The notes below the pieces were generated by a model. That model ran no database searches. It was not told the origin of the DNA and saw only the letters and a list, made by a program, of their open reading frames with translations. A stretch of DNA of 64,000 nucleotides from NCBI RefSeq assembly GCF_031834595.1, contig NZ_CP115541.1, positions 1,364,001 to 1,428,000 on the forward strand, written 5' to 3'. Both the position numbers and the translations under genes were made by a program. Each line of letters starts with the position of its first letter. The first letter of the stretch is position 1. This document shows positions 49,996 through 64,000 of the stretch, piece after piece. The DNA is from Stenotrophomonas oahuensis (GTDB lineage: Bacteria > Pseudomonadota > Gammaproteobacteria > Xanthomonadales > Xanthomonadaceae).

Positions 49996-50934
49996 ATGCG
50001 CATTCTGGTTCTTGGTGCCGGCGGTACCGGCGGTTACTTCGGCGGGCGTTTGGCCCAGGCCGGGGTGGATGTCACCTTCCTGGTGCGGCCCGCCCGCGCG
50101 GCGCAGTTGGCCCAGGATGGGCTGGTGATCCGCAGTCCGCTGGGCGATGCGGCCTTTCCGGTGCAGCATGTGACTGCTGATGGATTGGCCGCGCTGGCGG
50201 CTGAGAAGCCGTTCGATCTGGTGATGCTGAGCTGCAAGGCATATGACCTGGAAAGCTCGATTGGAGCGATTGCGCCGGCGGTGTCCTCGCGCACCAATGT
50301 GCTGCCGATCCTCAACGGGCTGCGTCACTACACCGCGCTGGATGAACGCTTCGGCCGCAATGCGGTGCTGGGTGGGTTGTGCTTCATCAGTGCGACCAAG
50401 GCACCGGATGGCGCGGTGCTGCATCTGGCCCCTGCGGCCAAGCTGACGTTTGGCGAGCGCGACAACACCGGGGCGAGTGCGCGGGTGTTGGCGCTGGCGG
50501 CGGCCTGTGTGCAGGCCAATGTCGATCATCTGGCCAGCGATGCGATTGGGCAGGAGCAGTGGGTGAAATACAGCTTCCTGACCGCGCTGGCGGCGGGCAC
50601 CTGTTTGATGCGCGCGGATGTGGGGAGGATTGTGGGCACCGATGAGGGTGAGGCGATCATGCGTGGGCTGTATGCGGAGTGCCTGGCGGTGGCCGAGGCG
50701 GCCGGAGAGCCGGTGCCGGAGAAGGCACAGGGGATTGCGCTGGGGGCGCTTACGCAGGCCGGGTCGGCGTTGAAGGCGTCGATGCTGCGCGATCTGGAGG
50801 CCGGGCAGCAGGTGGAGGCGATGCAGATTGTGGGGGATATGCGGCTGCGGGCGCGGGAGGCCGGGGTGCTGGCACCGTTGTTGGCGGTGGCGTATGCGCA
50901 TTTGCAGGCGTATGAGGCGTCGCGCGCGGGGTGA
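49996..50934 (+). CDS. panE: 2-dehydropantoate 2-reductase family protein
   Basis: 312 residues. N-terminal Rossmann motif ILVLGAGGTGGYFGGRLAQAG; AVSSRTNVLPILNGL and KYSFLTALAAGTCL are family blocks. PanE reduces ketopantoate to pantoate with NADPH in pantothenate synthesis. Several bacteria carry multiple paralogs, so the substrate of this copy is less certain. ATG 49996 is taken because MRILVLGAGG is the standard start. Confidence 0.85.
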   Translation: MRILVLGAGGTGGYFGGRLAQAGVDVTFLVRPARAAQLAQDGLVIRSPLGDAAFPVQHVTADGLAALAAEKPFDLVMLSCKAYDLESSIGAIAPAVSSRTNVLPILNGLRHYTALDERFGRNAVLGGLCFISATKAPDGAVLHLAPAAKLTFGERDNTGASARVLALAAACVQANVDHLASDAIGQEQWVKYSFLTALAAGTCLMRADVGRIVGTDEGEAIMRGLYAECLAVAEAAGEPVPEKAQGIALGALTQAGSALKASMLRDLEAGQQVEAMQIVGDMRLRAREAGVLAPLLAVAYAHLQAYEASRAG

Positions 50935-50972
50935 TGGGGTTCCCGGTCGAAAAGCGCGGCGCGGTGCGCCGT

Positions 50973-51041
50973 GTATCGACCAACGGTCGATACCTACCAG
51001 ATCCCCGTCATGCCGGTAGGTCACGACCGTTGGTCGTGACC
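50973..51041. repeat. SMAG dimer
   Basis: GTATCGACCAACGGTCGATAC (50973-50998) and GGTAGGTCACGACCGTTGGTC (51015-51041), two subfamilies facing each other between panE and tatD. Confidence 0.87.
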
Positions 51042-51064
51042 GCGTCGGACTAACCGACGTCGAA

Positions 51065-51862
51065 TCAACCGGCGTCGGGCAGCCGGAAGAACGCACGCGT
51101 AGCGGCCGTAGCATTCGCCGCCGTCACCACCACATCCTCGCCACGATCGCGCGCCAGCTCTTCCACGATGTGCGACAGGAACATCGGCTCATTCCGCCGA
51201 TCCTTCGGCATCGGCTTCAACGTACGCGGCAGCAGATACGGCGCGTCGGTTTCAATCATCAATCGATTGGCCGGCACGTGCTTCACCAGCTCGCGCAGGT
51301 GCGCGCCGCGGCGCTCGTCGCACAGCCAGCCGGTGATGCCGACGTACCAGTCCTGGTCCAGGTAATCGAACAGATCCTGGCGCTCGCCGGTGAAGCAATG
51401 CACCACCGCCGGGCCGAGGCGGCCTTCGAAGTTCTTCATCTGCGCCATGAAATCGGCATGCGCGTCGCGCTGGTGCAGGAACAGCGGTTTGCCGGTCTCG
51501 GCAGCCAGCTGCAACTGGCGCTCGAAGGCGCGGTGCTGCGCGGGGCGCGGCGAAAAATCGCGGAAATAGTCCAGCCCGCACTCGCCAACCGCCACTACTT
51601 CCGCATGTGCATGCAGCGCGCGCATCTCGGCGTCGCATTCGTCGGTGTATTCCACCGCGTGGTGCGGGTGCACGCCGGCGGTGGCGTACAGGAAACCCGG
51701 GTGCTGGCGGGCCAGTTCCAGCGCCATCGGCGAATGCTCGCGGCTGGCCCCGGTGATCACCATCTGCACCACACCGGCCGCGCGTGCGCGCTCCAGCACC
51801 GCGTCGCGGTCACGGTCGAAGGAGTCGTGGGTGAGGTTGGCACCGATATCGATCAGCTGCAT
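51065..51862 (-). CDS. tatD: TatD-family metal-dependent DNase
   Basis: 265 residues. TatD features: MQLIDIGANLTHDSF (DIGVNLT type), GVHPHH, GECGLDYF with metal Glu, HCFTG, and IETDAPYLLPR with metal Asp. The enzyme is a cytoplasmic 3'-5' exonuclease/deoxyribonuclease in E. coli. ATG 51862 has the canonical N-terminus. It is divergent from hrpB across 66 bases. Confidence 0.94.
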   Translation of the reverse strand: MQLIDIGANLTHDSFDRDRDAVLERARAAGVVQMVITGASREHSPMALELARQHPGFLYATAGVHPHHAVEYTDECDAEMRALHAHAEVVAVGECGLDYFRDFSPRPAQHRAFERQLQLAAETGKPLFLHQRDAHADFMAQMKNFEGRLGPAVVHCFTGERQDLFDYLDQDWYVGITGWLCDERRGAHLRELVKHVPANRLMIETDAPYLLPRTLKPMPKDRRNEPMFLSHIVEELARDRGEDVVVTAANATAATRAFFRLPDAG

Positions 51863-51928
51863 GGGGCAATTCGCACACTCAGGTAAGCGGCGCATTGTAA
51901 AGCACCGCCCTGCCCGTATCCTTGCCGC

Positions 51929-54433
51929 ATGCGTACGCCTGTTTTCCCCATTGCCGAGCAGCTGCCGGCCATTCTGAACGCCCTCGGCAGCCACACCCGC
52001 CTGGTGCTGGAAGCCCCGCCCGGCGCGGGCAAGACCACCCAGGTGCCGCTGGCGCTGCTGGACGCGTCGTGGCTGCAGGGGAAGAAGATCATCATGCTGG
52101 AGCCGCGCCGGGTGGCGGCGCGCAGTGCGGCGCAGTTCATGGCCCGCCAGCTGGGTGAGGACGTGGGCGAGACGGTGGGCTACCGCATCCGCTTCGAGAA
52201 CAAGGTATCCGCACGCACCCGGGTGGAAGTGGTTACCGAAGGCATCCTGACCCGCATGCTGCAGGACGACCCACTGCTGGAAGGCGTGGGCGCGCTGCTG
52301 TTCGATGAATTCCATGAGCGCCATCTGGCAGCGGACCTTGGGTTGGCACTGTCATTGGACGTGCAGGCGCAGCTGCGGGACGACCTGCGCATTGTGGTGA
52401 TGTCGGCCACGCTGGATGGCGAGCGGCTGGCGCAGTTTCTGGATGCGCCGCGCATCAGCAGTGCGGGCCGCAGCTATCCGGTGTCGATCAGCCATTTCCC
52501 GGCACGGCGCGAGGAGGCGCTGGAGGCGCAGGTGCGGCGCGCGGTGGAACAGGCGCTGCGCGAGCATCCGGGCGATGTGCTGGTGTTCCTGCCCGGGCAG
52601 CGTGAGATCAACCGCGCACTGGCGGCGCTGGATTCGGTGCTTCCGGCTGAGGTGCAGCTGCTGCCGCTGCACGGCGAACTGCCGGTAGACCAGCAGAGCC
52701 GCGTGCTGCAGCCCGACCCGATCGGGCAGCGCCGGGTGGTGCTGGCCACCAACGTGGCCGAGTCCTCGGTCACCCTGCCGGGGGTGCGGGTGGTGATTGA
52801 TGCGGGGCTGGCGCGCGAGCCGCGCTATGACCCCAACAGCGGCTTCGCGCGGCTGGACGTGGTGCCGATCGCACAGGCTTCGGCCGACCAGCGCGCCGGC
52901 CGTGCCGGGCGCGTGGCCGAGGGCTGGGCGTGGCGGCTGTGGCCGCAGTCGCAGCGGCTGGAGGCACAGCGCCGGCCGGAGATGGCCCAGGTGGAACTGG
53001 CCTCGCTGGCGCTGGAGCTGGCCGCCTGGGGCAGCGATGACCTGCGCTTCGTCGACACGCCGCCGGTGGGCGCGCTGGCGGCGGCGCGGGAACTGCTGCA
53101 GCGGCTGGGCGCGCTGAGCGATGGCGGCGGCCTCACCGCACTGGGCCGGCGCATGCTGGCGCTGGGCACGCACCCGCGACTGGCGGCGATGCTGCTGTCG
53201 GCGGGGGCCGGCACTGAGCAGGCGCTCGCCTGCGACCTCGCTGCGCTGGTGGAAGCGCGCGACCCGCTGCGCCAGGGCGGTGATGCCTTGGCAGCGCGCT
53301 GGCGGGCGCTGGCAGCGTTCCGTCAGGGCCGGGCACCGCACGATGCCAATCGCGGTGCGCTGGCCGCCATTGATGCCGCCAGCAAGCAGTGGCGACGCCG
53401 GCTGCGCTGCGACACCGCCCCGCCCGGCTCGGTGGAGGCACACCAGCTCGGCGACCTGCTGGCGCATGCCTTCCCGGACCGGATTGCCGCCCGCCATCCC
53501 ACCGATCCGCTGCGCTACCTGCTGGCCAACGGCCGCAGCGCGCGCCTGTTCGACCCCAGCGACCTGCGCGGCGAGCCGTGGCTGGTGGCGGTGGAACTGC
53601 GCTTCGAGGCACGCGATGCACTGCTGCTGCGCGCCGCCCCGGTGGACGAAACCCGCCTGCGCCGCGACTTCCCGCAGCGCTTCGTGCAGGAAGATGTGGT
53701 GCGCTGGGACGGCGACAAGCGGGCGCTGGTGGCGCTGCGCGAGACCCGCTTCGACCGCATCGTGCTGGACAGCCGTTCCGCCGGGCGGGTGGATCCGGCA
53801 CAGGCCGCACAGGCGCTGACCGACGCGGTGCGCGAACTCGGCCTGCAGGCACTGCCGTGGACCGACGGGCTGCGCCAATGGCAAGCGCGAACCGTGGGGC
53901 TGCGCCACTGGATGCCGGAACTGGAGCTGCCCGATGTGTCCGACGCGGCGTTGCTGGCGGCGCTGTCCGAGTGGCTGACCCCGGCCTTCAACGGCAAAAC
54001 CCGGCTGGATGCGCTGGATGAGAGCACGCTGGGCGAAGCGCTGAAGTCGCCGCTGCCGTGGGCACTGCGGCAACGCGTGGACCAGCTGGCTCCGGTACGG
54101 ATGGCAGTGCCCTCGGGCATGGAGCGGGCCCTTCATTACGCACTGGAGGCAGATGGCGTCACCCCGCAGCCGCCGGTGCTGGCGGTGAAGCTGCAGGAGC
54201 TGTTCGGGCTGGCCGACACCCCGCGCATTGCCGACGGCCGCGTGCCGCTGACCCTGCACCTGCTGTCACCCGGCGGGCGGCCGCTGCAGGTGACCCAGGA
54301 CCTGCGCAACTTCTGGGCCAACACTTATGCGGAAGTCAAAAAGGAAATGAAGGGGCGGTATCCCAAGCATCCGTGGCCGGATGACCCGTGGACCGCCACC
54401 GCCACGCATCGCGCCAAGCCGCGCGGGACGTAG
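51929..54433 (+). CDS. hrpB: ATP-dependent helicase HrpB
   Basis: 834 residues, DEAH-box. Motifs: I APPGAGKTTQVP, Ia LEPRRVAAR, II FDEFHERH, III SATLD, V TNVAESSVTLPGV, VI QRAGRAGR. The C-terminal HrpB domain ends NFWANTYAEVKKEMKGRYPKHPWPDDP, which is diagnostic. The biological role is poorly known; HrpB is a bacterial DExH RNA helicase family. Length matches the family. Confidence 0.96.
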   Translation: MRTPVFPIAEQLPAILNALGSHTRLVLEAPPGAGKTTQVPLALLDASWLQGKKIIMLEPRRVAARSAAQFMARQLGEDVGETVGYRIRFENKVSARTRVEVVTEGILTRMLQDDPLLEGVGALLFDEFHERHLAADLGLALSLDVQAQLRDDLRIVVMSATLDGERLAQFLDAPRISSAGRSYPVSISHFPARREEALEAQVRRAVEQALREHPGDVLVFLPGQREINRALAALDSVLPAEVQLLPLHGELPVDQQSRVLQPDPIGQRRVVLATNVAESSVTLPGVRVVIDAGLAREPRYDPNSGFARLDVVPIAQASADQRAGRAGRVAEGWAWRLWPQSQRLEAQRRPEMAQVELASLALELAAWGSDDLRFVDTPPVGALAAARELLQRLGALSDGGGLTALGRRMLALGTHPRLAAMLLSAGAGTEQALACDLAALVEARDPLRQGGDALAARWRALAAFRQGRAPHDANRGALAAIDAASKQWRRRLRCDTAPPGSVEAHQLGDLLAHAFPDRIAARHPTDPLRYLLANGRSARLFDPSDLRGEPWLVAVELRFEARDALLLRAAPVDETRLRRDFPQRFVQEDVVRWDGDKRALVALRETRFDRIVLDSRSAGRVDPAQAAQALTDAVRELGLQALPWTDGLRQWQARTVGLRHWMPELELPDVSDAALLAALSEWLTPAFNGKTRLDALDESTLGEALKSPLPWALRQRVDQLAPVRMAVPSGMERALHYALEADGVTPQPPVLAVKLQELFGLADTPRIADGRVPLTLHLLSPGGRPLQVTQDLRNFWANTYAEVKKEMKGRYPKHPWPDDPWTATATHRAKPRGT

Positions 54434-54440
54434 ATGGCGA

Positions 54441-54465
54441 TTGCCGGGCATGGCCCGGCACTACA
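54441..54465. repeat. SMAG palindrome
   Basis: TTGCCGGGCATGGCCCGGCAC, just after the hrpB stop and the same subfamily as 46541-46566. Confidence 0.8.
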
Positions 54466-54550
54466 GTCAGCATTCAGTCACGATGCGGATAACACGCTCT
54501 ACACGGCCATCGCGCCACACTGGATTTCGACCCGAGGCAAAGGACCCCAC

Positions 54551-54952
54551 ATGAGCAGACTGACCGTGATTACCGACCGCGCCCTGGAGCGCGCCCTGGA
54601 TTTGGCCAGCAGCGCCGGCGACGGCCTGAAGCATGCAGGCAGCAGCCTGGGCAGCAACCTGCGTCACTTTGGCCCGCAGGCCACCGACTGGATCAAGACC
54701 GGTGCCGCGCTGGGTGCAGTGAAGACCGGCGGCAAGGCGGCAGCCAAGGTGGTGCGCCGTAACCCGGCCGCGACCATTGCTGTTGCAGCCGTGGGCGTGG
54801 GCCTGCTGGGCTACGCGCTGTACCGCAAGCAGCAGAAGAAGAAGGCTGCGCAGGGCGGTGTGGTCGATGGGCAGGCGCAGCGCATTGCCGCGCGCAATCG
54901 TCGCACCAGCACCGTGATTGACGAGCACAGCGATATTGGTAGCGATGCGTGA
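54551..54952 (+). CDS. Single-helix membrane protein
   Basis: 133 residues. Cytoplasmic-looking N-terminal helix, then a Lys-rich segment (GGKAAAKVVRRNPAATIAVA) and one membrane helix (AATIAVAAVGVGLLGYALYR) with a Lys-rich stop-transfer (KQQKKK). Similar to ElaB/YgaM- or DUF883-like layout but no clear match. ATG 54551 gives MSRLTVITDR. A terminator follows. Confidence 0.7.
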   Translation: MSRLTVITDRALERALDLASSAGDGLKHAGSSLGSNLRHFGPQATDWIKTGAALGAVKTGGKAAAKVVRRNPAATIAVAAVGVGLLGYALYRKQQKKKAAQGGVVDGQAQRIAARNRRTSTVIDEHSDIGSDA

Positions 54953-54962
54953 TTGACTGAGC

Positions 54963-54988
54963 GCGACGACCAACGGTCGTCGCCCACC
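54963..54988. repeat. SMAG palindrome
   Basis: GCGACGACCAACGGTCGTCGC immediately before the terminator at 54990. Confidence 0.85.
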
Positions 54989-54989
54989 A

Positions 54990-55018
54990 CGCCGCCGGCA
55001 TTGCCCGGCGGCGTTTTT
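54990..55018 (+). terminator. Rho-independent terminator
   Basis: CGCCGCCGG-CATTGC-CCGGCGGCG followed by TTTTTGTTT. It ends the transcript of the single-helix membrane protein gene and lies in the convergent gap to rluE. Confidence 0.93.
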
Positions 55019-55021
55019 GTT

Positions 55022-55558
55022 TCAGTCGATCTGCCGCCATTGGCCGGGCTGCAGGTCATCCAGACGATGCGGGCCCATGGAAACGCGCACCAGGCGCAGG
55101 GTGGGCAGCCCGACGGCGGCGGTCATGCGCCGTACCTGGCGATTGCGCCCCTCGCGCAGGGTGATCGCCAGCCACGCATCGGGCACAGTCTTGCGGAAGC
55201 GAACCGGCGGGACGCGCTCCCACAGTGACGGGGCTTCCAGGATCTCCACGCCGGCCGGCAGGGTCGGGCCGTCGTTGAGCTGCACACCGCGGCGCAGGCT
55301 CTGCAGGGCCTCATCGGTCACCGTGCCTTCCACCTGCACCCAGTAGGTCTTGGCTTCCTTGTGCTTCGGGTCGGTCAGGCGGTTGGCCAGGCGGCCATCG
55401 TCGGTGAGCAGCAGCAGGCCTTCGCTGTCGTAGTCCAGCCGCCCTGCCGCATAGACGTCAGGCGGCAGGCCGAACCCGGCCAGGGTCGCGCGCGGCGGTT
55501 GGCTGCGGTCGGTGAACTGGCACAGCACGTTGAAGGGTTTGTTGAAGGCGATGAGCAT
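55022..55558 (-). CDS. rluE: 23S rRNA pseudouridine(2457) synthase RluE-like
   Basis: 178 residues, lacking an S4 domain as RluE does. Start [17 protein letters not shown]; catalytic Asp in [17 protein letters not shown]; then KTYWVQVEG and [12 protein letters not shown]. The enzyme isomerises one uridine of 23S rRNA. RluE-like enzymes vary in target base, so the position is inferred from family. Confidence 0.92.
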
Positions 55559-55582
55559 GCGGCCATTGTCCCATCCCCGCGA

Positions 55583-55658
55583 GCGACGACCAACGGTCGT
55601 CGCCTACCGATGGTCGCCGCACCCGGTAGCGCCCGACCGTTGGTCGGGCGGCTCTACC
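55583..55658. repeat. SMAG dimer
   Basis: GCGACGACCAACGGTCGTCGC (55583-55608) and GGTAGCGCCCGACCGTTGGTC (55625-55658) between two minus-strand genes. The second element touches the stop of the methyltransferase gene. Confidence 0.85.
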
Positions 55659-56512
55659 TAACGCTTCACAAAGCGCAGGGTCATGCGGTCGCTCTCACCA
55701 ATCGCCTTGTACTTGGCGGCATCGGCGGCGTCATGGTTGTTCGACGGCGGCAGGGTCCACACGCCGTTCGGGTAATCCTTGGTGTCGCGCGGATTGGTGT
55801 TGATCTCACTGCTGCCGGCCAGCTCGAAACCGGCGGCCTTGGCCAACGCGATCACCTGCGCCTGACCCACATAGCCACTCTTGTCATCGGCCGGCACATC
55901 GGCCTTGGCGCGGTGCTCCACCACGCCCAGCACGCCACCCGGCTTGAGCACGTTGTAGAAGCCCTTGAACATGCCCTCGGCCTGACCCGCGCTGCGCCAG
56001 TTGTGCACGTTGCGGAAGGTCAGCACCACATCGGCCGAGCCGGGTGCGCCGAACACCGGGGCCTTCGGGTCGTACTTCACCACCTGGGTCTTGTCGAACA
56101 GCGCCGGGGTGTCGGCAAACTTCTTGCTCAGGCTGTCCAGACCACGCTGCTGGTAGTCGCGGCCGCGGCCTTCGGCCACCGCCATCGGGTCGACCACGGC
56201 GGCCACGTAAGTGCCCTTGTCGCGCAGCAGCGGGGCCAGGATCTCGGAGTACCAGCCGCCGCCCGGGGTGATTTCGACCACGGTCTTGCCCGGCTCCACG
56301 CCGAAGAACGACAGCGTCTGCGCCGGGTGGCGATAGGCATCGCGCTGCACATTGGCCGGGGTGCGGCCCTTGCCGTCAACGGCGGCCTGCACGGCGGGGG
56401 TGATGGCCGGCTGCGCGTTGGCACCGGCCGGCTTGATTGCCATGGCAGGGGCGGCCAGCAGCAGCGTGGACACGGTGAACAGGCAGGCACAGCTGAGCGA
56501 ACGGGCTTTCAT
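55658..56512 (-). CDS. Exported SAM-dependent methyltransferase-like protein
   Basis: 284 residues with a signal peptide (LSCACLFTVSTLLLAAPAMA). The class I methyltransferase core follows: motif I VVEITPGGGWYSEIL, VDPMAVAEGRGRDYQQRG, VVLTFRNVHNW (motif IV region) and a later GFYNVLKPGGVLGVVEHR. An exported methyltransferase is odd because SAM is a cytoplasmic cofactor; the protein may bind another ligand. ATG 56512 gives the best signal sequence. Confidence 0.85.
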   Translation of the reverse strand: MKARSLSCACLFTVSTLLLAAPAMAIKPAGANAQPAITPAVQAAVDGKGRTPANVQRDAYRHPAQTLSFFGVEPGKTVVEITPGGGWYSEILAPLLRDKGTYVAAVVDPMAVAEGRGRDYQQRGLDSLSKKFADTPALFDKTQVVKYDPKAPVFGAPGSADVVLTFRNVHNWRSAGQAEGMFKGFYNVLKPGGVLGVVEHRAKADVPADDKSGYVGQAQVIALAKAAGFELAGSSEINTNPRDTKDYPNGVWTLPPSNNHDAADAAKYKAIGESDRMTLRFVKR

Positions 56513-56684
56513 CGGCACAACTCCAGTGACGGGATGCGGCGAGACTAGCAGCCCATTGCGTCAAGGTGTTCACAAATCGTTAGTACGGTGGCGTATTGCG
56601 GAACACTGTTTTGTGCGGCGTGCCTCGGCGATGTCATCACCTCGCCCGTATGCTGTTCCATTGATTCTCAATGGAGACCTGCCC

Positions 56685-57635
56685 ATGACTGCAGCGCGCG
56701 AACTCGGCCGTTCCGGCCTGAAAGTGGCCCCCATCGCGTTCGGCGGCAACGTGTTTGGCTGGGGTGCGGACGAGAAGACCTCGTTCGATCTGCTGGATGC
56801 ATTCGTTGACGCCGGCTTCAATCTGGTCGACACCGCTGATGCCTACTCGGCCTGGGTTCCGGGCAATCAGGGTGGTGAGTCGGAGACGATTCTAGGCCGC
56901 TGGTTCCAGCGCAGCGGCAAGCGCGACAAGGTGGTCCTGGCCACCAAGGTGGCCAAGTGGGCCGAACGCCCCGGGCTTTCCGCCGACAACATCGCGGCTG
57001 CGGTGGAGGATTCACTGCGCCGCCTGCAGACCGATGTGATCGACCTGTACCAGGCACACGAAGATGATGAGTCGGTTCCGCTGGAAACCACGTTGGCCGC
57101 GTTCGGCCGGTTGATCGAACAGGGCAAGGTGCGTGCGATTGGGGCTTCGAACTACAGTGCCACGCGCCTGCGTGATGCGCTGAAGGTATCAGCGGACTAC
57201 AAGCTGCCGCGCTATGAAACCCTGCAGCCGGAGTACAACCTGTATGACCGCGCTGGCTATGAGGATGGCCTGGAAGCGGTCGCAAGCGAGCATGGACTCG
57301 GCGTGATCAGCTACTACTCGCTGGCCAGCGGCTTCCTTACCGGCAAGTACCGCAGCGCGGATGATGCCGGCAAGAGCGCGTCGCGCGGCAGCAGCGTGGT
57401 CGGCAAGTATGTGAACCCGCGCGGGCTGCGCATTCTGGAGGCGCTGGATGATGTGGCCGCTTCGCACAAGGCGACGGCGGCGCAGGTGGCGCTGGCGTGG
57501 TTGATTGCGCAACCGACCATCACCGCACCGATTGTGAGTGCTACCAGCGTGGGCCAGCTGCAGGATGTGCTGGCGGCGGCGAAGCTGACGCTGAGTGCGA
57601 ATGAGTTGGCGCAGTTGGATGCTGCTTCGGCTTGA
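56685..57635 (+). CDS. Aldo/keto reductase
   Basis: 316 residues, (beta/alpha)8 NADPH-dependent oxidoreductase. Catalytic residues appear as Asp and Tyr in VDTADAYSAW, Lys in VLATKVAKW and His in LYQAHEDD. EYNLYDRAGYEDGL and YYSLASGFLTGKYR fit the YajO/YccK-like subgroup. ATG 56685 follows GGAGAC. The physiological substrate is not known. It ends next to a SMAG dimer. Confidence 0.94.
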   Translation: MTAARELGRSGLKVAPIAFGGNVFGWGADEKTSFDLLDAFVDAGFNLVDTADAYSAWVPGNQGGESETILGRWFQRSGKRDKVVLATKVAKWAERPGLSADNIAAAVEDSLRRLQTDVIDLYQAHEDDESVPLETTLAAFGRLIEQGKVRAIGASNYSATRLRDALKVSADYKLPRYETLQPEYNLYDRAGYEDGLEAVASEHGLGVISYYSLASGFLTGKYRSADDAGKSASRGSSVVGKYVNPRGLRILEALDDVAASHKATAAQVALAWLIAQPTITAPIVSATSVGQLQDVLAAAKLTLSANELAQLDAASA

Positions 57636-57639
57636 CGTT

Positions 57640-57705
57640 GTAGGGACGCGCCATGCGCGTCCGCACGGATTCCGAACGATTCGGACGCGCATGGCGCGTC
57701 CCTAC
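57640..57705. repeat. Long SMAG-like inverted pair
   Basis: GTAGGGACGCGCCATGCGCG (57640-57662) and its inverted partner at 57683-57705 (GGACGCGCATGGCGCGTCCC plus TAC) can fold on each other. It forms the border between the aldo/keto reductase and the rtcB leader. Confidence 0.88.
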
Positions 57706-57812
57706 GGCATCCCCACGCATGAGTGGCACCCCGTGGCAATCGTCATCGGTTGCGTGTAAGGTACGCGCCCATCGCCGCCCTGTGCGGTTCCACCCTTCAA
57801 CCTGAGGCCCCG

Positions 57813-57914
57813 ATGCACCGCACTTCCTTCGCCATCGCATACCGACTGCCGCGCACGCTGGACGTGCTGCGTGCGCGCGATGCCGCAGGTGCGATGCACC
57901 CGGCCACATCCTGA
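57813..57914 (+). CDS. Putative 33-residue leader peptide upstream of rtcB
   Basis: ATG 57813 has GAGG five bases upstream (57804-57807). The peptide reads MHRTSFAIAYRLPRTLDVLR then ARDAAGAMHPATS, with 5 Arg. It ends at TGA 57912-57914, 10 bases before the first stem of a tandem hairpin array that leads to a terminator. Placement, Shine-Dalgarno and size match attenuator leader peptides; expression is inferred. Confidence 0.5.
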   Translation: MHRTSFAIAYRLPRTLDVLRARDAAGAMHPATS

Positions 57915-57924
57915 TCTTCCTGCG

Positions 57925-58020
57925 CGGAGATCGGGCTTCCGATCTCCGAGGCACGCCAACGCCCTCGGATGCTGTATCCGGGGGCGTTTTTGTTTGCGTT
58001 GGCGTCAAAGGAATGAATCC
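57925..58020 (+). promoter_or_regulatory. Candidate transcription attenuator of rtcB
   Basis: Stem 1:2 is CGGAGATCGG / CCGATCTCCG (57925-57948, perfect 10 bp). The terminator 3:4 follows at 57960-57986. CCGAGG (57946-57951) can instead pair with CCTCGG (57963-57968), which would break both stems. Outer arms ACGCCAACGC (57953-57962) and GCGTTGGCGT (57996-58005) are also complementary. This is the 1:2 / 2:3 / 3:4 layout of classical attenuation. Confidence 0.55.
57960..57991 (+). terminator. Intrinsic terminator inside the rtcB leader
   Basis: CGCCCTCGGAT-GCTGT-ATCCGGGGGCG with one T:G wobble, followed by TTTTTGTTT. It ends 30 bases before the rtcB ATG, so it would act on transcripts reading into rtcB. 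Confidence 0.9.
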
Positions 58021-59241
58021 ATGAACACGCAACACACATTTGAACTGCTGCACGCCGAAGGCCCCACGCCCATCAAGGGCTGGGTGCGTGGCGTGCCCGT
58101 TGACGAACTTGCCCAGCAGCAGCTGCGCAACATTGCCAACATGCCCTTTGTGGGCCCATGGGTCGCGGTCATGCCTGACGTCCACGTCGGCAAGGGCGCA
58201 ACTGTGGGCTCGGTGATTCCCACCCGTGGCGCGATCATCCCGGCCGCGGTCGGGGTGGATATCGGCTGCGGCATGGCCGCGGTGCGCACCACGCTGCGCG
58301 CCGAAGACCTGCCCGACAATCTGGCCCAGCTGCGCAGCAGCATCGAACGCGCGGTGCCGGTCGGCAACGGCAAGGGTGGCGAGCACCGGCTGTTGCCGGA
58401 CAGCATCCGCAGCCGGATCGAACGCTCCGTGCTGGTGCAGGGGCTGGATGCGATCAAGCAGCGGCACCGCAAGATCCGCACCGACAAGCTGGCCTGCCAG
58501 ATCGGTACGCTGGGCGGCGGCAACCACTTCATCGAGATCTGCCTGGACGAAACCGGCGCGGTGTGGGTGATGCTGCACAGCGGTTCACGCGGCACCGGCA
58601 ACCTGATCGGCACCTACTTCATCGAGCAGGCGCGCGAGCAGCTGGCACGGCGGGTGCTGGGTTTCCATCTGCCGGACAAGGACCTGGCGTTCTTCCTGCA
58701 GGGCGAGCCGCTGTTCGACGACTACGTGCAGGCGGTGGGCTGGGCGCAGGACTACGCGCGCGAGAACCGCGAGGCGATGATGGCGCGGGTGCTGGCCGAG
58801 ATGCGGGTGCGGCTGCCGAAGTTCCAGCTGGAGAAGCTGGCCGTGAACTGCCACCACAACTACGTGCAGAGCGAGACCCACGGCGGCGAGGAACTGCTGG
58901 TGACCCGCAAAGGCGCGGTGAGTGCACGTGCCGGCGAGCTGGGGATCATTCCCGGCAGCATGGGCACGCGCAGCTACATCGTGCGGGGCAAGGGCAATGC
59001 CGAAAGCTTCCACAGCTGCAGCCACGGTGCCGGCCGGGTGCTCAGCCGCAGCGCGGCGCGGCAGCAGATCACCCTGGCCCAGCACCGCGAGGCCACCGCG
59101 CATGTGGAATGCCGAAAGGACGCGGCCGTGATCGACGAGTCGCCAGCGGCGTACAAGTCGATTGATGCGGTGATGGCGGCGCAGAGCGATCTGGTCGAGG
59201 TGGTGCACACCTTGCGGCAGGTGGTGTGCATCAAGGGGTGA
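58021..59241 (+). CDS. rtcB: RtcB-family RNA ligase
   Basis: 406 residues. RtcB joins RNA 2',3'-cyclic phosphate or 3'-phosphate ends to 5'-OH ends with GTP and Mn. Visible motifs: MPDVHVGKGATVGSVIP, GVDIGCGMAAVRT (metal Cys), GGGNHFIEI, HSGSRGTGN, NCHHNYV, GSMGTRSYIVRG and SCSHGAGRVLSR (guanylylated His region). ATG 58021 has AAAGGA upstream. No RtcA or RtcR gene is adjacent, so control may depend on the leader. Confidence 0.95.
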   Translation: MNTQHTFELLHAEGPTPIKGWVRGVPVDELAQQQLRNIANMPFVGPWVAVMPDVHVGKGATVGSVIPTRGAIIPAAVGVDIGCGMAAVRTTLRAEDLPDNLAQLRSSIERAVPVGNGKGGEHRLLPDSIRSRIERSVLVQGLDAIKQRHRKIRTDKLACQIGTLGGGNHFIEICLDETGAVWVMLHSGSRGTGNLIGTYFIEQAREQLARRVLGFHLPDKDLAFFLQGEPLFDDYVQAVGWAQDYARENREAMMARVLAEMRVRLPKFQLEKLAVNCHHNYVQSETHGGEELLVTRKGAVSARAGELGIIPGSMGTRSYIVRGKGNAESFHSCSHGAGRVLSRSAARQQITLAQHREATAHVECRKDAAVIDESPAAYKSIDAVMAAQSDLVEVVHTLRQVVCIKG

Positions 59242-59248
59242 AGCACCT

Positions 59249-62200
59249 TCACCCCATCCTGGGGCCACGGTCCTGCTGGTGTTGTTGCTCCAGGGCAACC
59301 TGCTGCTCACGCTGCTGGTTGCCCTCCTGCACCCGCGCCACCGTTTCCTGCAATGGTGGCGCTTCCTGCGCCACATCGGTCACCGAACGGAACCCCGGGA
59401 CTGTCCCGGCAATAAAGATCCGGTCCCCAGCCATCATCACCTTGTCGATCCTGTCGACATCGGCAATCCTGGCCTGCTTGGCATCCAACAACGCCCGCAT
59501 CACCTGATCGTCGCCGATATGTCCCGGCACATCCTGGCGGATACGCCTGAACATTCCTTGGTCGGCGACTGACAACCCGCTGATTCCGGGTTGCTGTTCC
59601 GCCGTGCGCTCCGCAACCGGACTCGATTGGGCCAGATGTGGCGACCGTGCGTCCGTCCATTCCCTGGAATGGGCTTCCAGCGTCATCTTCAATGCCGCTG
59701 TGGAATCCACACGCACTGCAGCGGCGTCGGAATATGGATTGGACGCCGCCATCCCCTCAATCTGCCCTCGATCCCCGATTCGTACACGGCTGATCTCCAC
59801 GCCTTGGCGCTCGCCTTCGGCGAGAAGCGCCGCGGCAATCTTCTCGCTATGCGGACCGGACTTGATCCCTTGCCCCGCTTCTGCGTGATGGACCTGCTGC
59901 AGCACCCGCTGGAACTCAGCATTACCGGGATGCCGGGTGTCACTCAGGCCTTCTGGTTGCTTGGCCTCTTGAGGTTCAACAGCCGGACCATCCGCCTGGA
60001 CTGAGGCCGCCTGCTCCGCCAGCTGCTCAGGCGAGGGCACCACCCGCACCGTCTCAAGCGTGGTCGGCTCGCGCAGCGGATTCCACCGCTCGTCCAGCAC
60101 CTTCTGCACATGGTCGCGCTGCGCGTCAAAGGCAAGGTCGAGCTCGGCGCGCAGATCGCCCTTGGCATGCTTGTTCCTGAACCAGCTCTCGGATATCCAC
60201 TCACCGCTTTCCTGCCGAGCGTATCTGCGGCCATCCGAGCCCACCACGCGCTCCGGGTGCCTGAGCGCATCGGCGACAGCTTCTGGCAGCTTGCCCTTGC
60301 TGTGTCGCTGCCAATCGTTCTGTTCGTACAGCACTTTGTAATTGGCTGCCAAGGCAGCAGGGCTACGGGCGGCGTTGTCAGCGGTAATCTCGCGCGACTG
60401 GGCGTCCAGCTCAATCGCCCGTTCCGGAGAGGCGAAGTCGATTCGTCCACGAAAGCTGCCGTCCGCGCTGATCTCCCGCCGCCAACGACCGGTCTCGGAG
60501 TCAGGCACCCAGTCGCCTCGGTACATGCCCCGCTTCTCGTCCGGTTGCGGCTCCACTTTGAAAGGGCTACGCGCATTAGCCACGCCCATAGCCAACTCGG
60601 TGACCTTGGTGACCGCCTTGTAGTTCAACTCATCGGCGAGAACCGGACTGGCCTTCATCGGCTCAATCCCTGGCAAGGGCGGCAGATCGCGGGTCCAGCC
60701 TTTCTCCGGGTGCTTAGGGTCGGCCGTCCAGTCATTTCCGTCGCTGCCCCGGTGGCTGTAGATGCGATTGCGCTCTATTTCATCGGCAATTTTGTCGCCG
60801 CCCACGCCGCCGATAGCTGCCCCCAACGCGCCCCCGCCCAATGCGCCCCAAGGACCGAGGGTGCCGCCAACCCGCGCACCCACCTGAAAGCCCGTCCAGG
60901 CCATGCCAGCCGTGGTGGTGGTACGGGTAATCGACGCCTGGGCTGCGGCCAGATTGCTTTCATTGCGCAACTGCGTGTAATCGCGGGCGGCGTCGGCCAC
61001 CTCCAGGGTGGTCACCACAGCGGCGGCGGTGTTGCCGAGGACGCGAACGCGGCTGGTCTGCTCTGCCGTGGCAGCCCGAGCTTGTTCTGCTGCTTCGATA
61101 CCGCGAAGTGTTGCCGCGCTCTCCTCCACCTTGAGGTTGGGATCGCCAATTAGGACGCCCGCGACGCGTGCGCTGACGTGCTCCGGACCCAGGGGCTTGG
61201 CTGCGTGCGGCAAGCCATCCGCCTGGACCAGATGGTCCGGCGCAAGCCGGGCATTCACGCCCCCCGGCGTAGAACGATCCACTTTTCTGTCCAACTTGTA
61301 CAGCAGCAGCCCTTCTTCAGAACGGTGCACCACGTTGAGGCGTGGATCGGAAGGTTCGTATACCTTCTCCAGCAACGGCGCATCGGGACGCAAGGCGTTG
61401 CAGTAGTCCACCATAAGGTTGCAACTACGCCGGGCCAGCCCGTCGCGAATGTAGCTACCTCCGATGTCCGAATGGGCACCGGCGACCTGCACATTGAGGA
61501 AGCGCCCGTCCTCGGACAGGCCCGGCGCAATGATCTGATCACTGGGAAATTTTGCGCGGACTTCGTCCAGCGCGGTGATCTGGAAGCCCGACACCACCGA
61601 GGGAGCGAGACGGCGGTCGAATCGCTCAGGTACGCCCGTTGCCACGGGGTCGAAGAGACCGACTGCTTGAGGGGTGAGACCCGGCGGAACAAGGTGACGC
61701 GTATAGATCGACCGCCCGTCGGGCCCAATCGCTTCGCTGCTTGGATCAACTATTCCACGTTCGTGCAGAAGATTGGTGAATCCAGCGGCTTGGCTTGCCC
61801 CTCGACTGAATCCAATTCCAACTACCCGGATGCTTACCTCCGGATCTGCCTTCTGCCACTTTGCAGCTTTGTTCACCAGGTCGGTGTACATTTCCTCCAG
61901 CCGCTGCTGGTAGGTTTAGCCCAATGCGCCATCCGCAACACGCGACAGTGGATTGCTTTGCGTACCGGGACCGGCAAGATATCGAACATGTATCTGCCCA
62001 TCGCGCTCCGACAGAGCCTTTAGCTGATCGTCGATCCTGGCAACATTGGTCGCATGAAGTGGGTCAAGATGCTTGTCGTTTCCAGTCCCGTCAAACGCCG
62101 CGATATAGATTCTCTCGTGCGGATTTGTGGGGTCCCCGAGCTGCGGCACCCTAAATTCTGCGAGCGCTTCTTGGGCCTTGTGATAGCTACGAAGGTGGGC

Positions 62201-62269
62201 ATCATCGGCGGGATAGAACGATACATTGTCGTCTATGGCCGTAACACCCTGCAGGCTTTTGTCGTTCAT
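59249..62269 (-). pseudogene. T4SS effector: DUF2235 phospholipase-like with XVIPCD-type C-terminus, in-frame stop
   Basis: The frame starts at ATG 62269 and reads IYIAAFDGTGNDKHLDPLHATN, the first DUF2235 strand, then meets TAA at 61916-61918. The same frame continues as TYQQRLEEMYTDLVNK, IRVVGIGFSRGASQ (nucleophile Ser), AHSDIGGSY and a long linker. The last ~200 residues hold two XVIPCD-like blocks (HPGNAEFQRVLQQVHHAEAG, ADVDRIDKVMMAGDRIFIAG) and a Gln-rich tail, the export signal of Xanthomonadaceae T4SS effectors. The stop probably replaced a Tyr codon. GGAGG before ATG 61891 could allow reinitiation 24 bases later, giving an 880-residue product without the first strand. Confidence 0.82.
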
Positions 62270-62291
62270 TGTCGCGATCCTTGCGCTGGAT

Positions 62292-62816
62292 TCAGTAGGT
62301 GTGCGTCCAGACCAGAATCAAGTCGTCCCGACTTCCGCTTGACGGGCATCCCGGAGCCTGCGGCTCGTCCGTAAATACCAACGCTCGCGTGTAAACGCTT
62401 ATTGTTCTGTCATTTACTTCCATCAGCACATCTACGGATAGTGGATTGACAGCTTTGGCTGCAAGCCAGCTCTCCAGGACGGCGTTTCTTGGAACGTTAT
62501 GGCGAACGAGGCGGTCTTTGAACAGTTCGCCAATGTCCACACTTGCCTGATGCTCGAATCCGTCCAGCGAAGTCCACTCGACCTCAGCCGGAGATGCGAA
62601 CTCATATCCACCGTCGTGGCCGGCAGACCACGAATCTCTCCAGTCGTCACTTGGGGGAGCGCCAGATGGTGTCTCCAGATGCAAGCGGGTAAAGCAGTAG
62701 TTGTTGTAGATGACCTTGCATCGCAGCGTGTTGTAGCAACGCACGCCAAAGTCGTAGTGGCGGAACTTCAACGGCCACGGATCGGAAGGAGGCTTCGGCG
62801 AAGTCAGGCCAAACAT
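62292..62816 (-). CDS. Putative immunity protein of the adjacent T4SS effector
   Basis: 174 residues from ATG 62816 (ATG 62855 also in frame). The protein has NNYCFTRLHLETPSG, DDWRDSWSAGHDGGYEFAS, AEVEWTSLDGFEHQASVDIGEL and VLMEVNDRTISVYTRALVFT, a strand-rich fold I cannot name. It sits 22 bases upstream of the effector on the same strand, the usual position of immunity genes in T4SS effector pairs. No signal peptide is seen, which is unusual for immunity to a phospholipase acting in the periplasm. Confidence 0.65.
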   Translation of the reverse strand: MFGLTSPKPPSDPWPLKFRHYDFGVRCYNTLRCKVIYNNYCFTRLHLETPSGAPPSDDWRDSWSAGHDGGYEFASPAEVEWTSLDGFEHQASVDIGELFKDRLVRHNVPRNAVLESWLAAKAVNPLSVDVLMEVNDRTISVYTRALVFTDEPQAPGCPSSGSRDDLILVWTHTY

Positions 62817-62920
62817 GAGCAGATTTCCTCTTTCCTTGATGAGCGCGCTCGTCATCCTACTGGCGGGCCGGCCGCCTCGCTATCAGAAAAGTCCCAGATG
62901 CGGCCTTTGATCCGACCCAA

Positions 62921-62943
62921 TAGGGACGCGCCATGCGCGTCCC
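62921..62943. repeat. SMAG-like palindrome
   Basis: TAGGGACGCGCCATGCGCGTC, same subfamily as 57640-57662. Confidence 0.8.
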
Positions 62944-62954
62944 AGCGCGGTGAT

Positions 62955-63857
62955 TCACCCCGCCCTATCCTCGGAAATCAGGGCGTGGTGCAGGCCTACG
63001 CCGGCTCTGACACCCTCCGCCATCGCAAGCGTGATGTTGCCCATCGTGGTCGCATCACCGGCCGCATAGACCCCGGGCACGCTGGTCTGCTTCTGCGCGT
63101 CCACGGTCAGCAGCACGCCTACCGGGCTGTCTTCCAACGCACACCCCAACTGCTCGGCCAGCGGCGACGCCATGTGCTGGCGCGCAGTCAAGAACAGCGC
63201 GCGGATGTCGATGCGACGACCATCGGCCAGCACGGCGGCACTCAGTTGCGGGGCCTCACCCTCCAATGATGCGACGGGCGTGGTTTCCAGAGTGACACCG
63301 CGTCGCTGCAGGATCGCGAGCTCATCCACGTCGATCTCCGCCCCCTGGGTAAAGAACGTCACCTGCCCCCAATCGGCCAGCACGCTGGCCATCTTCGGCG
63401 ACATCGCATGTCCACCCAGCAACCCGATGGAACCGCCACCAATCTCATAGCCATGGCAGTACGGGCAATGCACCACACTGCTACCCCAGCGCTCGGCCAA
63501 GCCGGGCAACTCGGGCAGCTCATCACGCACACCAGTCGCCAGCAGCACCTTGCGCGTCGCCCAGGTCTCACCACCTTCAGTACGTAGGGCAAAGCCATCC
63601 GGCGTGGCGTGCCCGTCCACGACGGTGTCGTTGCTCCAGCGCACAGTGGGGTAATCCAGCAGCTGCGCCTTGGCCTGCTTCAGCAGTTCGCTGCCGGCAA
63701 TGCCGTCCAACCCGAGCACGCCGTGCGAATGCGCGGCGAAGCGGTTGCGCGGTAATCCGGCATCCACCACCAGCACATTGCGGCGGGCGCGGGCGAGGAT
63801 CAGGCCGGCAGAAAGACCGGCAAAACTGCCGCCGACGATGATGGCATCAAAGGTCAT
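62955..63857 (-). CDS. NAD(P)/FAD-dependent oxidoreductase, thioredoxin reductase-like
   Basis: 300 residues. FAD Rossmann motif IIVGGSFAGLSAGLILARAR, redox pair HCPYCHGYE (CxxC about residue 135), and the C-terminal FAD motif GVYAAGDATTMGN. It resembles thioredoxin reductase-like proteins but lacks a clear NADPH GxGxxA loop (IGLLGGHAMSPKMA instead). The start has AGGAGG upstream. It overlaps the upstream regulator gene by 11 bases. Confidence 0.9.
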   Translation of the reverse strand: MTFDAIIVGGSFAGLSAGLILARARRNVLVVDAGLPRNRFAAHSHGVLGLDGIAGSELLKQAKAQLLDYPTVRWSNDTVVDGHATPDGFALRTEGGETWATRKVLLATGVRDELPELPGLAERWGSSVVHCPYCHGYEIGGGSIGLLGGHAMSPKMASVLADWGQVTFFTQGAEIDVDELAILQRRGVTLETTPVASLEGEAPQLSAAVLADGRRIDIRALFLTARQHMASPLAEQLGCALEDSPVGVLLTVDAQKQTSVPGVYAAGDATTMGNITLAMAEGVRAGVGLHHALISEDRAG

Positions 63858-64000
63858 GGGAACCTCCTGAGGTGTGTTTGGCGAGATGCACGGCGAAGTC
63901 CGCGCCGAGGGTGGCGAGCGTGGTCGCCTGCAGACGGGTTTCCAGCAGCGCCTGCGCCTGCCGGTAGCTGTCGTCGAGGGCGTCGTTGACCACCTGCATC
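63847..64000 (-). CDS. 3' end of probable Rrf2-family regulator (cut by window)
   Basis: Only the last ~50 codons are visible: MQVVNDALDDSYRQAQALLE, then TRLQATTLATLGADFAVHLAKH, ending at TGA 63847-63849. The end of Rrf2 regulators typically reads this way (alternating helix, TTLADL-like). It overlaps the oxidoreductase start, so the two are one operon. Family call is tentative because the HTH lies outside the window. Confidence 0.5.
   Translation of the reverse strand, partial: MQVVNDALDDSYRQAQALLETRLQATTLATLGADFAVHLAKHTSGGSHDL

Follow-up and report, generated by a model that had tools for sequence, protein, structure and literature searches.

What switches bacterial RtcB on is, to our knowledge, only partly known, and the locus described here raises the question of whether, and in which direction, the translation of a short leader ORF could decide on the transcription of rtcB. 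The window, by which we mean the whole stretch of 64,000 nucleotides that was analyzed (Stenotrophomonas oahuensis, contig NZ_CP115541.1, positions 1,364,001 to 1,428,000; positions below are those of the window unless a contig is given), had been annotated in a first pass with a 33-codon ORF with a Shine-Dalgarno site, followed after 10 bases by a 10-bp hairpin, a terminator and then rtcB, together with a rival pairing of CCGAGG (57946-57951) with CCTCGG (57963-57968). In a letter-by-letter check, the coordinates of the leader, hairpins and ORF matched the sequence, and the rival pairing proved to be real, extending to 7 bp (57945-57951 with 57963-57969). Based on the analysis below, we consider it probable that the leader acts as a ribosome-mediated attenuator, controlling the transcription of an RNA-repair operon that is ON when translation falters. 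The features of the locus are as follows:

57734..57762, +, weak candidate promoter TGGCAA-17 nt-TAAGGT, read from the sequence; the nearest relatives align TAAGGT/TAATGT at the -10
57804..57807, +, Shine-Dalgarno-like GAGG of the leader ORF, 5 nt before the ATG, read from the sequence
57813..57914, +, leader ORF, 33 codons plus TGA (ATG at 57813, TGA at 57912-57914)
57910..57919, +, segment 0, the stop-codon region, which pairs with arm 1 (57926-57935) in a constrained fold of the window locus and by complementarity
57925..57934, +, segment 1, that is, arm 1 of hairpin P1 (covariation, 69 sequences)
57939..57948, +, arm 2 of hairpin P1, overlapping segment 2 (covariation, 69 sequences)
57945..57951, +, segment 2, the antiterminator 5' strand TCCGAGG (7-bp pairing with 57963-57969)
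57954..57962, +, segment 3', CGCCAACGC, partner of segment 5 (pairing counts, two-sided changes)
57958..57988, +, intrinsic terminator hairpin 3:4, stem 57958-57969 with 57977-57988 (scan, sequence)
57963..57969, +, segment 3, the antiterminator 3' strand CCTCGGA, also within the terminator 5' arm (pairing, covariation, tree test)
57996..58004, +, segment 5, GCGTTGGCG, beyond the U-tract, pairing with 3' (pairing counts, sequence)
58007..58012, +, AAAGGA, the rtcB Shine-Dalgarno site, 2 nt past segment 5 (sequence)
58021..59241, +, rtcB, an RNA ligase of 406 aa with its ATG at 58021 (Pfam PF01139 RtcB, E 6.7e-125)

Hairpin P1 comprises 10 bp (57925-57934 with 57939-57948) with the loop GCTT, and 10 nt separate it from the stop of the leader ORF. 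The U-rich tract TTTTTGTTT occupies 57987-57995, its first two bases lying inside the terminator stem. The Shine-Dalgarno site of the leader ORF is clear here but, as judged by eye, not in most relatives, and a strict promoter scan called no sigma-70 promoter. From the end of the terminator stem to the ATG of rtcB there are 32 nt, which leaves little space for a second promoter. A 96-nt stretch of the leader folds with a z of -5.1, and none of 200 shuffles was equally stable. The simple terminator scan, which called one site in 1 kb here, should be considered little proof, as shuffles already yield 0.7 sites on average. The covariance models of Rfam 15 gave no match to the leader when positions 50000-64000 of the window were scanned with E up to 5, and none at the leader of five relatives with E up to 1.

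Two neighboring features should be mentioned. Between the aldo/keto reductase gene and the leader lies an inverted repeat (GTAGGGACGCGCCATGCGCGTCC and its near reverse complement, 57641-57707), which could be either a REP-like element or the terminator of the upstream gene; near relatives carry different GC-rich repeats at this place. The convergent neighbor of rtcB (59249-61891, -) encodes a large protein in which a Tle1-like phospholipase domain is combined with an XVIPCD (X-Tfes) domain; from these domains, it looks like an antibacterial secretion effector.

Distribution of the leader and the genes behind it

The 242-bp leader was matched in 53 of the 91 genomes of the genus, and the weakest of these matches, pieces of 24-43 bases, are probably chance. 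A covariance model of the hairpin-terminator part (R1), built from 20 sequences and used at E <= 0.001, found matches in 177 of 395 Xanthomonadaceae genomes, covering 31 of 54 genera, and in 106 of 398 genomes of an order-wide sample that overlaps the family set; here too, the weakest matches are probably chance. With the covariance model, the leader was also found in a second family, the Rhodanobacteraceae. A degenerate pattern gave 89 matching stretches in the GTDB genome collection, and of the 80 listed, 77 belong to the order by their titles. The listed genera include Xanthomonas, Pseudoxanthomonas, Lysobacter, Luteimonas, Arenimonas, Dyella, Rhodanobacter, Frateuria and kin, a few of which we take to belong to the order. 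The other three listed stretches come from metagenome bins, of which two carry the label Planctomycetota and one that of Proteobacteria.

For the comparisons below, 60 family and 20 second-family loci were picked from the listed matches for spread of genus and score, a choice that is thus not random, and 13 genus loci were added to the chosen set. On the leader's strand, slipin was found in 51 and rtcB in 53 of the 60 family loci, and either or both in 57; the three exceptions are a locus at which the contig ends (L100) and two weak matches (L112 and L124). Behind the leader of the 20 second-family loci, slipin and rtcB were both present in 16 and slipin only in 2, and neither in 2, which are weak matches. 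In relatives within the genus, the leader precedes slipin-rtcB or rtcB alone. A leader match was present in 133 of the 137 genomes with a related slipin, adjacency having been checked in the fetched loci only. As for the four slipin genomes that had no match, slipin lies less than 1 kb from a contig start in two (G180 and G206), and only distant slipins are present in the others (G091 and G199). In one locus (L131, genome G311), the rtcB behind the leader looks decayed, its match being split into two separate pieces, and the antiterminator pairing contains several mismatches.

An element tied to rtcB alone was considered and rejected, as slipin and tRNA-like RNAs lie between the leader and rtcB in most fetched relatives, where they presumably form one operon. 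Of the 51 slipin-bearing family loci, 40 have one or two tRNA-like elements, as called by ARAGORN, in the interval from leader to slipin; tRNA-like elements were also called in all 16 second-family loci scanned. In ten loci that were inspected closely (L082, L083, L099, L104, L108, L142, L145, L151, L153 and L085), two tRNA-like RNAs stand in tandem, adjacent or nearly so, with varied anticodons, several of them irregular. It is possible that these tandem RNAs are decoys for anticodon nucleases or RtcB, or substrates of these enzymes. We also considered the middle gene as the Rsr of an Rsr/Y-RNA operon and rejected this, as the two proteins tested carry a Pfam Band_7/SPFH domain and not TROVE. 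In three genomes, that of the window (G000), G030 and G077, the leader is followed directly by rtcB, no tRNA-like element was called at the leader-rtcB locus, and in G000 no close slipin was found. From their place among relatives that have the middle part, we infer that these three lost it.

The first-pass annotation had presented attenuation as a mode different from control by RtcR. This contrast should be qualified, as the genome has a full RtcR locus elsewhere. By Pfam, none of the six ORFs neighboring the window's rtcB has an rtcA (RTC) or RtcR domain, and the window locus shows neither the adjacent rtcR nor the downstream rtcA of an RtcR-controlled rtcBA operon. Of the 149 family genomes sampled, 20 have RtcR, among them that of the window, where the only match (C1:1486799) is located about 60-65 kb from the window's rtcB. 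It belongs to a separate RNA-repair locus of canonical appearance (G000:C1:1482374-1488388; L140 4375-10389), in which the + strand carries rtcR and the - strand a Ro60/TROVE-like gene, rtcB and rtcA, and control of the window's rtcB by RtcR was rejected for this reason. The second rtcB is 60% identical to that of the window. The genome thus holds two rtcB genes under apparently different control, and with a full RtcR locus at this distance, both control modes may coexist; the two copies would offer a natural comparison of the two modes in one cell.

Conservation of the leader ORF and of the helices

As judged by sequence comparison, the ORF, the length of the gap behind it, the helices and the association with the genes described above are shared by the relatives. 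For each locus, the best candidate ORF was chosen, with 28-48 codons allowed and an end at most 28 nt from P1. One locus (L094) was left out of the ORF, segment 0 and folding tests, as it has no perfect 7-bp helix by the rule used. An ORF of 30-46 codons lies just before P1 in all 70 loci with a located P1, ending 6-19 nt before it and mostly starting with ATG (64/70) and stopping with TGA (62/70). From stop to P1, 51 of these loci have a gap of 10-13 nt, and 65 have one of 10 nt or more. In shuffled upstream DNA, an ATG ORF of 28-48 codons is found at the same place in 4%. The second family has an ATG ORF of up to 50 codons in 17 of 18 loci.

The encoded peptide is under little purifying selection. 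In 16 close pairs, dN was lower than dS in 10, higher in 5 and equal in 1, and substitutions in the ORF were spread as 83, 85 and 92 over the three codon positions. A conserved functional leader peptide was therefore rejected. The peptide is nonetheless not random in its N-terminal part, as an Ile-Ala dipeptide at codons 5-9 occurs in 30 of 58 non-redundant leader peptides when 2.3 are expected, and its composition is enriched for F, K, I and A. Inspection of the leader peptides by eye found no single-codon run of the kind formed by trp/his-type regulatory codons, and the analysis of codon enrichment in the leader ORFs found no sensing codon. As place, length and stop of the ORF are kept while its amino acids are weakly constrained, we read selection as acting mainly on the act of translation and on the stop position, more than on the peptide.

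Covariation was uninformative within the genus, where the hairpin arms are invariant, and was therefore sought across the wider set. The weak matches L112 (43.5 bits) and L124 (36.5 bits), which have no slipin or rtcB nearby, were left out before pairs were counted, and a 69-row alignment omits two further loci (L013 and L042). In these 69 sequences, 99.7% of the P1 cells are paired and four pairs show two-sided changes, which none of 500 shuffles reached. For the terminator, 97.8% of cells are paired and two pairs show two-sided changes; its covariation is weak, as 13 of 500 shuffles reach this number of two-sided pairs and 312 of 500 its number of pair types.

The seven pairs of the antiterminator 2:3 are paired in 97.4% of cells over 71 loci, with 28 two-sided cells compared with 10.3 after shuffling, a value reached by none of 2000 shuffles; the number of standard pair types does not exceed that of shuffles. 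The variation is almost entirely at the outer pair, which is T:A in 41 of the 71 loci, C:G in 25 and unpaired in 5. On a tree of RtcB and slipin, segment 3 follows segment 2 at this pair in about 6 of 7 (mean 5.9) independent comparisons, with no opposite changes (sign test, median p 0.03 on supported branches). The tree has 68 rows, omitting three loci that have no protein rows, and 65 are usable; of the three rows set aside for other letters at this pair, two belong to the five mismatches and have T in segment 3, and the third is the G:G mismatch. By best-helix search, a divergent locus (L157) retains a 7-bp 2:3 helix with a wholly different sequence, and another (L158) retains only 5 bp. 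Covariation of the alternative stem and conservation of the ORF had been proposed by the first-pass annotation as checks on its idea, and both are borne out by these comparisons, the ORF being conserved in place, length and stop position.

Two further helices were absent from that annotation. The first, 3':5, joins the 5' side of the terminator with an arm beyond the U-tract, which is an unusual feature. Of the 71 loci, 51 have all 8 counted pairs and another 17 have 7 of them, and these counts should be read with the note that the helix was placed by best match, which gives a shuffled arm 8 pairs in 1.9% of trials. Two-sided cells number 31, compared with 5.8 after shuffling; in tree-aware tests, the independent changes are too few for significance. 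The second, 0:1, pairs the stop-codon region with arm 1, and its support is a comparison of duplex energies. The mean duplex energy is -15.6 kcal/mol, compared with -9.1 kcal/mol for a shuffled segment 0 (own better in 65/70) and -14.0 kcal/mol for segment 0 of another species (own better in 52/70). Taken together, P1, the antiterminator and 3':5 covary clearly, and the terminator weakly.

These results bear on two other explanations of the leader. The ORF could be a free-standing small-protein gene with its own terminator, with rtcB separately promoted and merely downstream. The ORF does have a start, a stop and a terminator, and its peptide is partly non-random; we nonetheless give this explanation hardly any credence, as the peptide is under little purifying selection, 2:3 and 3':5 would have no reason to covary, slipin and/or rtcB follow the leader in 57 of 60 loci and the terminator stem is so close to rtcB here. 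Alternatively, the RNA could sense a ligand or a protein in the manner of a riboswitch, with a non-regulatory ORF and a 3':5 pseudoknot that binds the ligand. Strong covariation of 3':5 in 71 loci would fit such an RNA, as would the loop of 2:3, whose length of 10-13 nt in every one of the 71 loci, with 3' directly next to segment 3, suits an H-type pseudoknot. However, the invariant columns of the 69-row alignment are mostly within helices and leave little for a ligand pocket, and all 70 loci retain the ORF, so that we regard riboswitch-like sensing as very unlikely. The short ORF upstream of a terminator, conserved in its place, and the mutually exclusive, covarying terminator and antiterminator are what is found in attenuators, and an attenuator coupled to the leader ORF and controlling rtcB is well supported.

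Predicted effect of ribosome position

That the position of the ribosome would choose the helix is a prediction of prefix folding, in which the free RNA begins at the moving edge of the ribosome and positions are given relative to P1; the folds are equilibrium and non-kinetic, which should be considered when referring to the probabilities below. With segment 0 free, the states {0:1 + 2:3} and {1:2} differ by -0.02 kcal/mol on average (range -6.8 to 8.0), and with segment 0 masked, {1:2} is favored by about 2 kcal/mol. As the rival states are nearly equal in energy, the predicted switching is modest. When helix 2:3 forms, P1 loses no more than its outer 4 pairs.

In the 70 loci, the median probability of 2:3, P(2:3), is 0.94 with the edge at -20, 0.05 at -6, 0.09 at 0 and 1.0 at +3. 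The 16 second-family loci (L157-L160 being omitted) give 0.94, 0.07, 0.61 and 1.0 at the same positions, the OFF state at edge 0 thus being weak in this family. P(-20) exceeds P(-6) in 65 of 70 family loci and in all 16 second-family loci, and in 64-66 of the 70 across 28 and 37 C and four prefix lengths, the shortest prefix lowering the median at -20 to about 0.5. When segment 0 was shuffled once per locus, the median at -20 fell to 0.05, and the ON state was thus removed. The window itself gives 0.89 at -20, 0.04 at -6, 0.08 at 0 and 1.0 at +3. Its values stay at 0.89-0.99 between -40 and -15 and are 0.18 at -50 and 0.13 at -60, so that no ON state is predicted for a ribosome that stalls early in the ORF. 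When no ribosome is present (-110), the median P(2:3) is 0.73 in the family and 0.23 in the second family, and the window gives 0.98.

Referred to the stop codon, an edge 7-10 nt past the stop leaves 58-64 of 70 loci predicted OFF (P < 0.3), and a ribosome 5-8 codons before the stop position gives median values of 0.79-0.96; with the edge at 12 nt past the stop, the contrast is weaker, with 41 of 70 loci predicted OFF. The folding thus predicts ON for a stall shortly before the stop, OFF at the stop and ON well into arm 1. This predicted order follows the logic of classical attenuation and is opposite to the direction of the first-pass annotation, which had supposed that a ribosome held near the stop codon covers arm 1 and lets the antiterminator form. 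We found no support for this supposition. A standard ribosome footprint extends about 10 nt past the A-site codon; in the 51 of 70 loci where the gap measures 10-13 nt, arm 1 would lie beyond this reach or just at its limit. What a ribosome at the stop would cover is segment 0, the partner of arm 1, for which OFF is predicted. Thus, of the translation-coupled attenuation proposed in that annotation, the attenuator with its leader ORF stands, and the direction of control does not.

A form of the original direction should still be weighed, in which a ribosome that the peptide, a drug or slow release holds at the leader stop, or close to it, covers arm 1 and so allows 2:3 to form and rtcB to be ON. 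Shielding at least 3 nt of arm 1 does flip the prediction to ON, with a median P(2:3) of 1.0 in both families, and the excess of Ile-Ala at codons 5-9 (30/58 vs 2.3 expected) would allow peptide-dependent arrest. However, the gap measures 10 nt or more in 65 of 70 loci, so that the standard footprint stops at arm 1, and arrest at the stop gives no role to the complementarity of segment 0 with arm 1. We therefore think it unlikely.

In the mechanism that we propose, five RNA segments would form the mutually exclusive helices 0:1, 1:2, 2:3 (the antiterminator) and 3:4 (the terminator). During normal translation, the terminating ribosome would sit over segment 0, hairpin 1:2 would form just ahead of it, and segment 3 would be left free for the terminator, keeping rtcB OFF. 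A ribosome stalled about 5-12 codons before the stop would leave segment 0 free to pair with arm 1; segment 2 could then capture segment 3, the terminator would be pre-empted and rtcB would be transcribed. The switching itself, its direction and translation failure as its signal are what we infer.

As arm 5 is made after the U-tract, helix 3':5 would be possible only after read-through and would have no influence on the first termination decision. Together with 2:3, it may form a pseudoknot, and it could equally be nested, as it is in the window's minimum-energy fold. Once formed, it might keep the RNA in the read-through state, or it might act on the structure of the region ahead of the next gene.

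Joining these observations leads to a broader reading, which we put forward tentatively, as plausible and somewhat short of probable. In Xanthomonadaceae and Rhodanobacteraceae, the element would make the ribosome a damage sensor for RNA repair: a throw-away ORF left unfinished, for example through cleaved tRNA or damaged ribosomes, would expose the stop-codon segment, the five-segment chain would flip to the antiterminator, later locked as a pseudoknot by the arm beyond the U-tract, and an operon of tandem tRNA mimics, slipin and RtcB would be released. The lineage of the window would have kept the switch, lost everything between the switch and rtcB, and would work it beside a separate, full RtcR-controlled rtcBA operon. 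If rtcB is indeed under a ribosome-read attenuator, RNA repair would answer translation failure directly, with no protein sensor, and the control of the slipin-rtcB operon in both families would be accounted for.

Comparison with known attenuators and rtcB regulators

A search of open-licence PubMed Central articles, which is a weak negative, gave no description of an rtcB attenuator or leader element. As far as the literature searched goes, the leader represents a real, undescribed family of cis-regulatory RNA, probably of the ribosome-mediated attenuator kind and with an unexpected target.

The trp/his attenuators use a short leader ORF, mutually exclusive helices and a terminator before the first gene, with ribosome position as the input. 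The element described here shares the leader ORF, the helix chain and the terminator and, by prediction, the ribosome input and the OFF state at the stop. It differs from these attenuators in having no run of codons for a single amino acid, in targeting RNA repair rather than biosynthesis, in a segment 0 that includes the stop codon and in a fifth arm, beyond the U-tract, that covaries with the 5' side of the terminator. In antibiotic-responsive leader-peptide attenuators, inhibition of translation is read by a leader ORF and a terminator/antiterminator pair, as is proposed for our element; their targets are drug efflux and rRNA methylation, whereas that of the element is RNA repair.

Among the known regulators of rtcB, RtcR with sigma54 controls rsr-yrlBA-rtcBA, and this operon or its vicinity also encodes RNAs with tRNA-like features, according to the parts of the source available to us (PMC7790460). 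As far as these parts go, both systems share rtcB as the target and tRNA-like RNAs in or near the operon, while the rtcB behind our element has no adjoining rtcA or rtcR, the partner gene in its relatives is slipin and not Rsr, and the element would act by termination rather than initiation. In Anabaena, as portions of another study describe, rtcB has a protein repressor, TrcR, rtcB expression is tied to translational stress, and a slipin gene appears in the same table of fold changes (PMC10272220). To the extent of these portions, the link of rtcB with translational stress, which is proposed for our element, and the occurrence of a slipin gene are common to both systems, and the difference lies in the regulator, which is a protein repressor in Anabaena and would be an RNA switch in the element described here.
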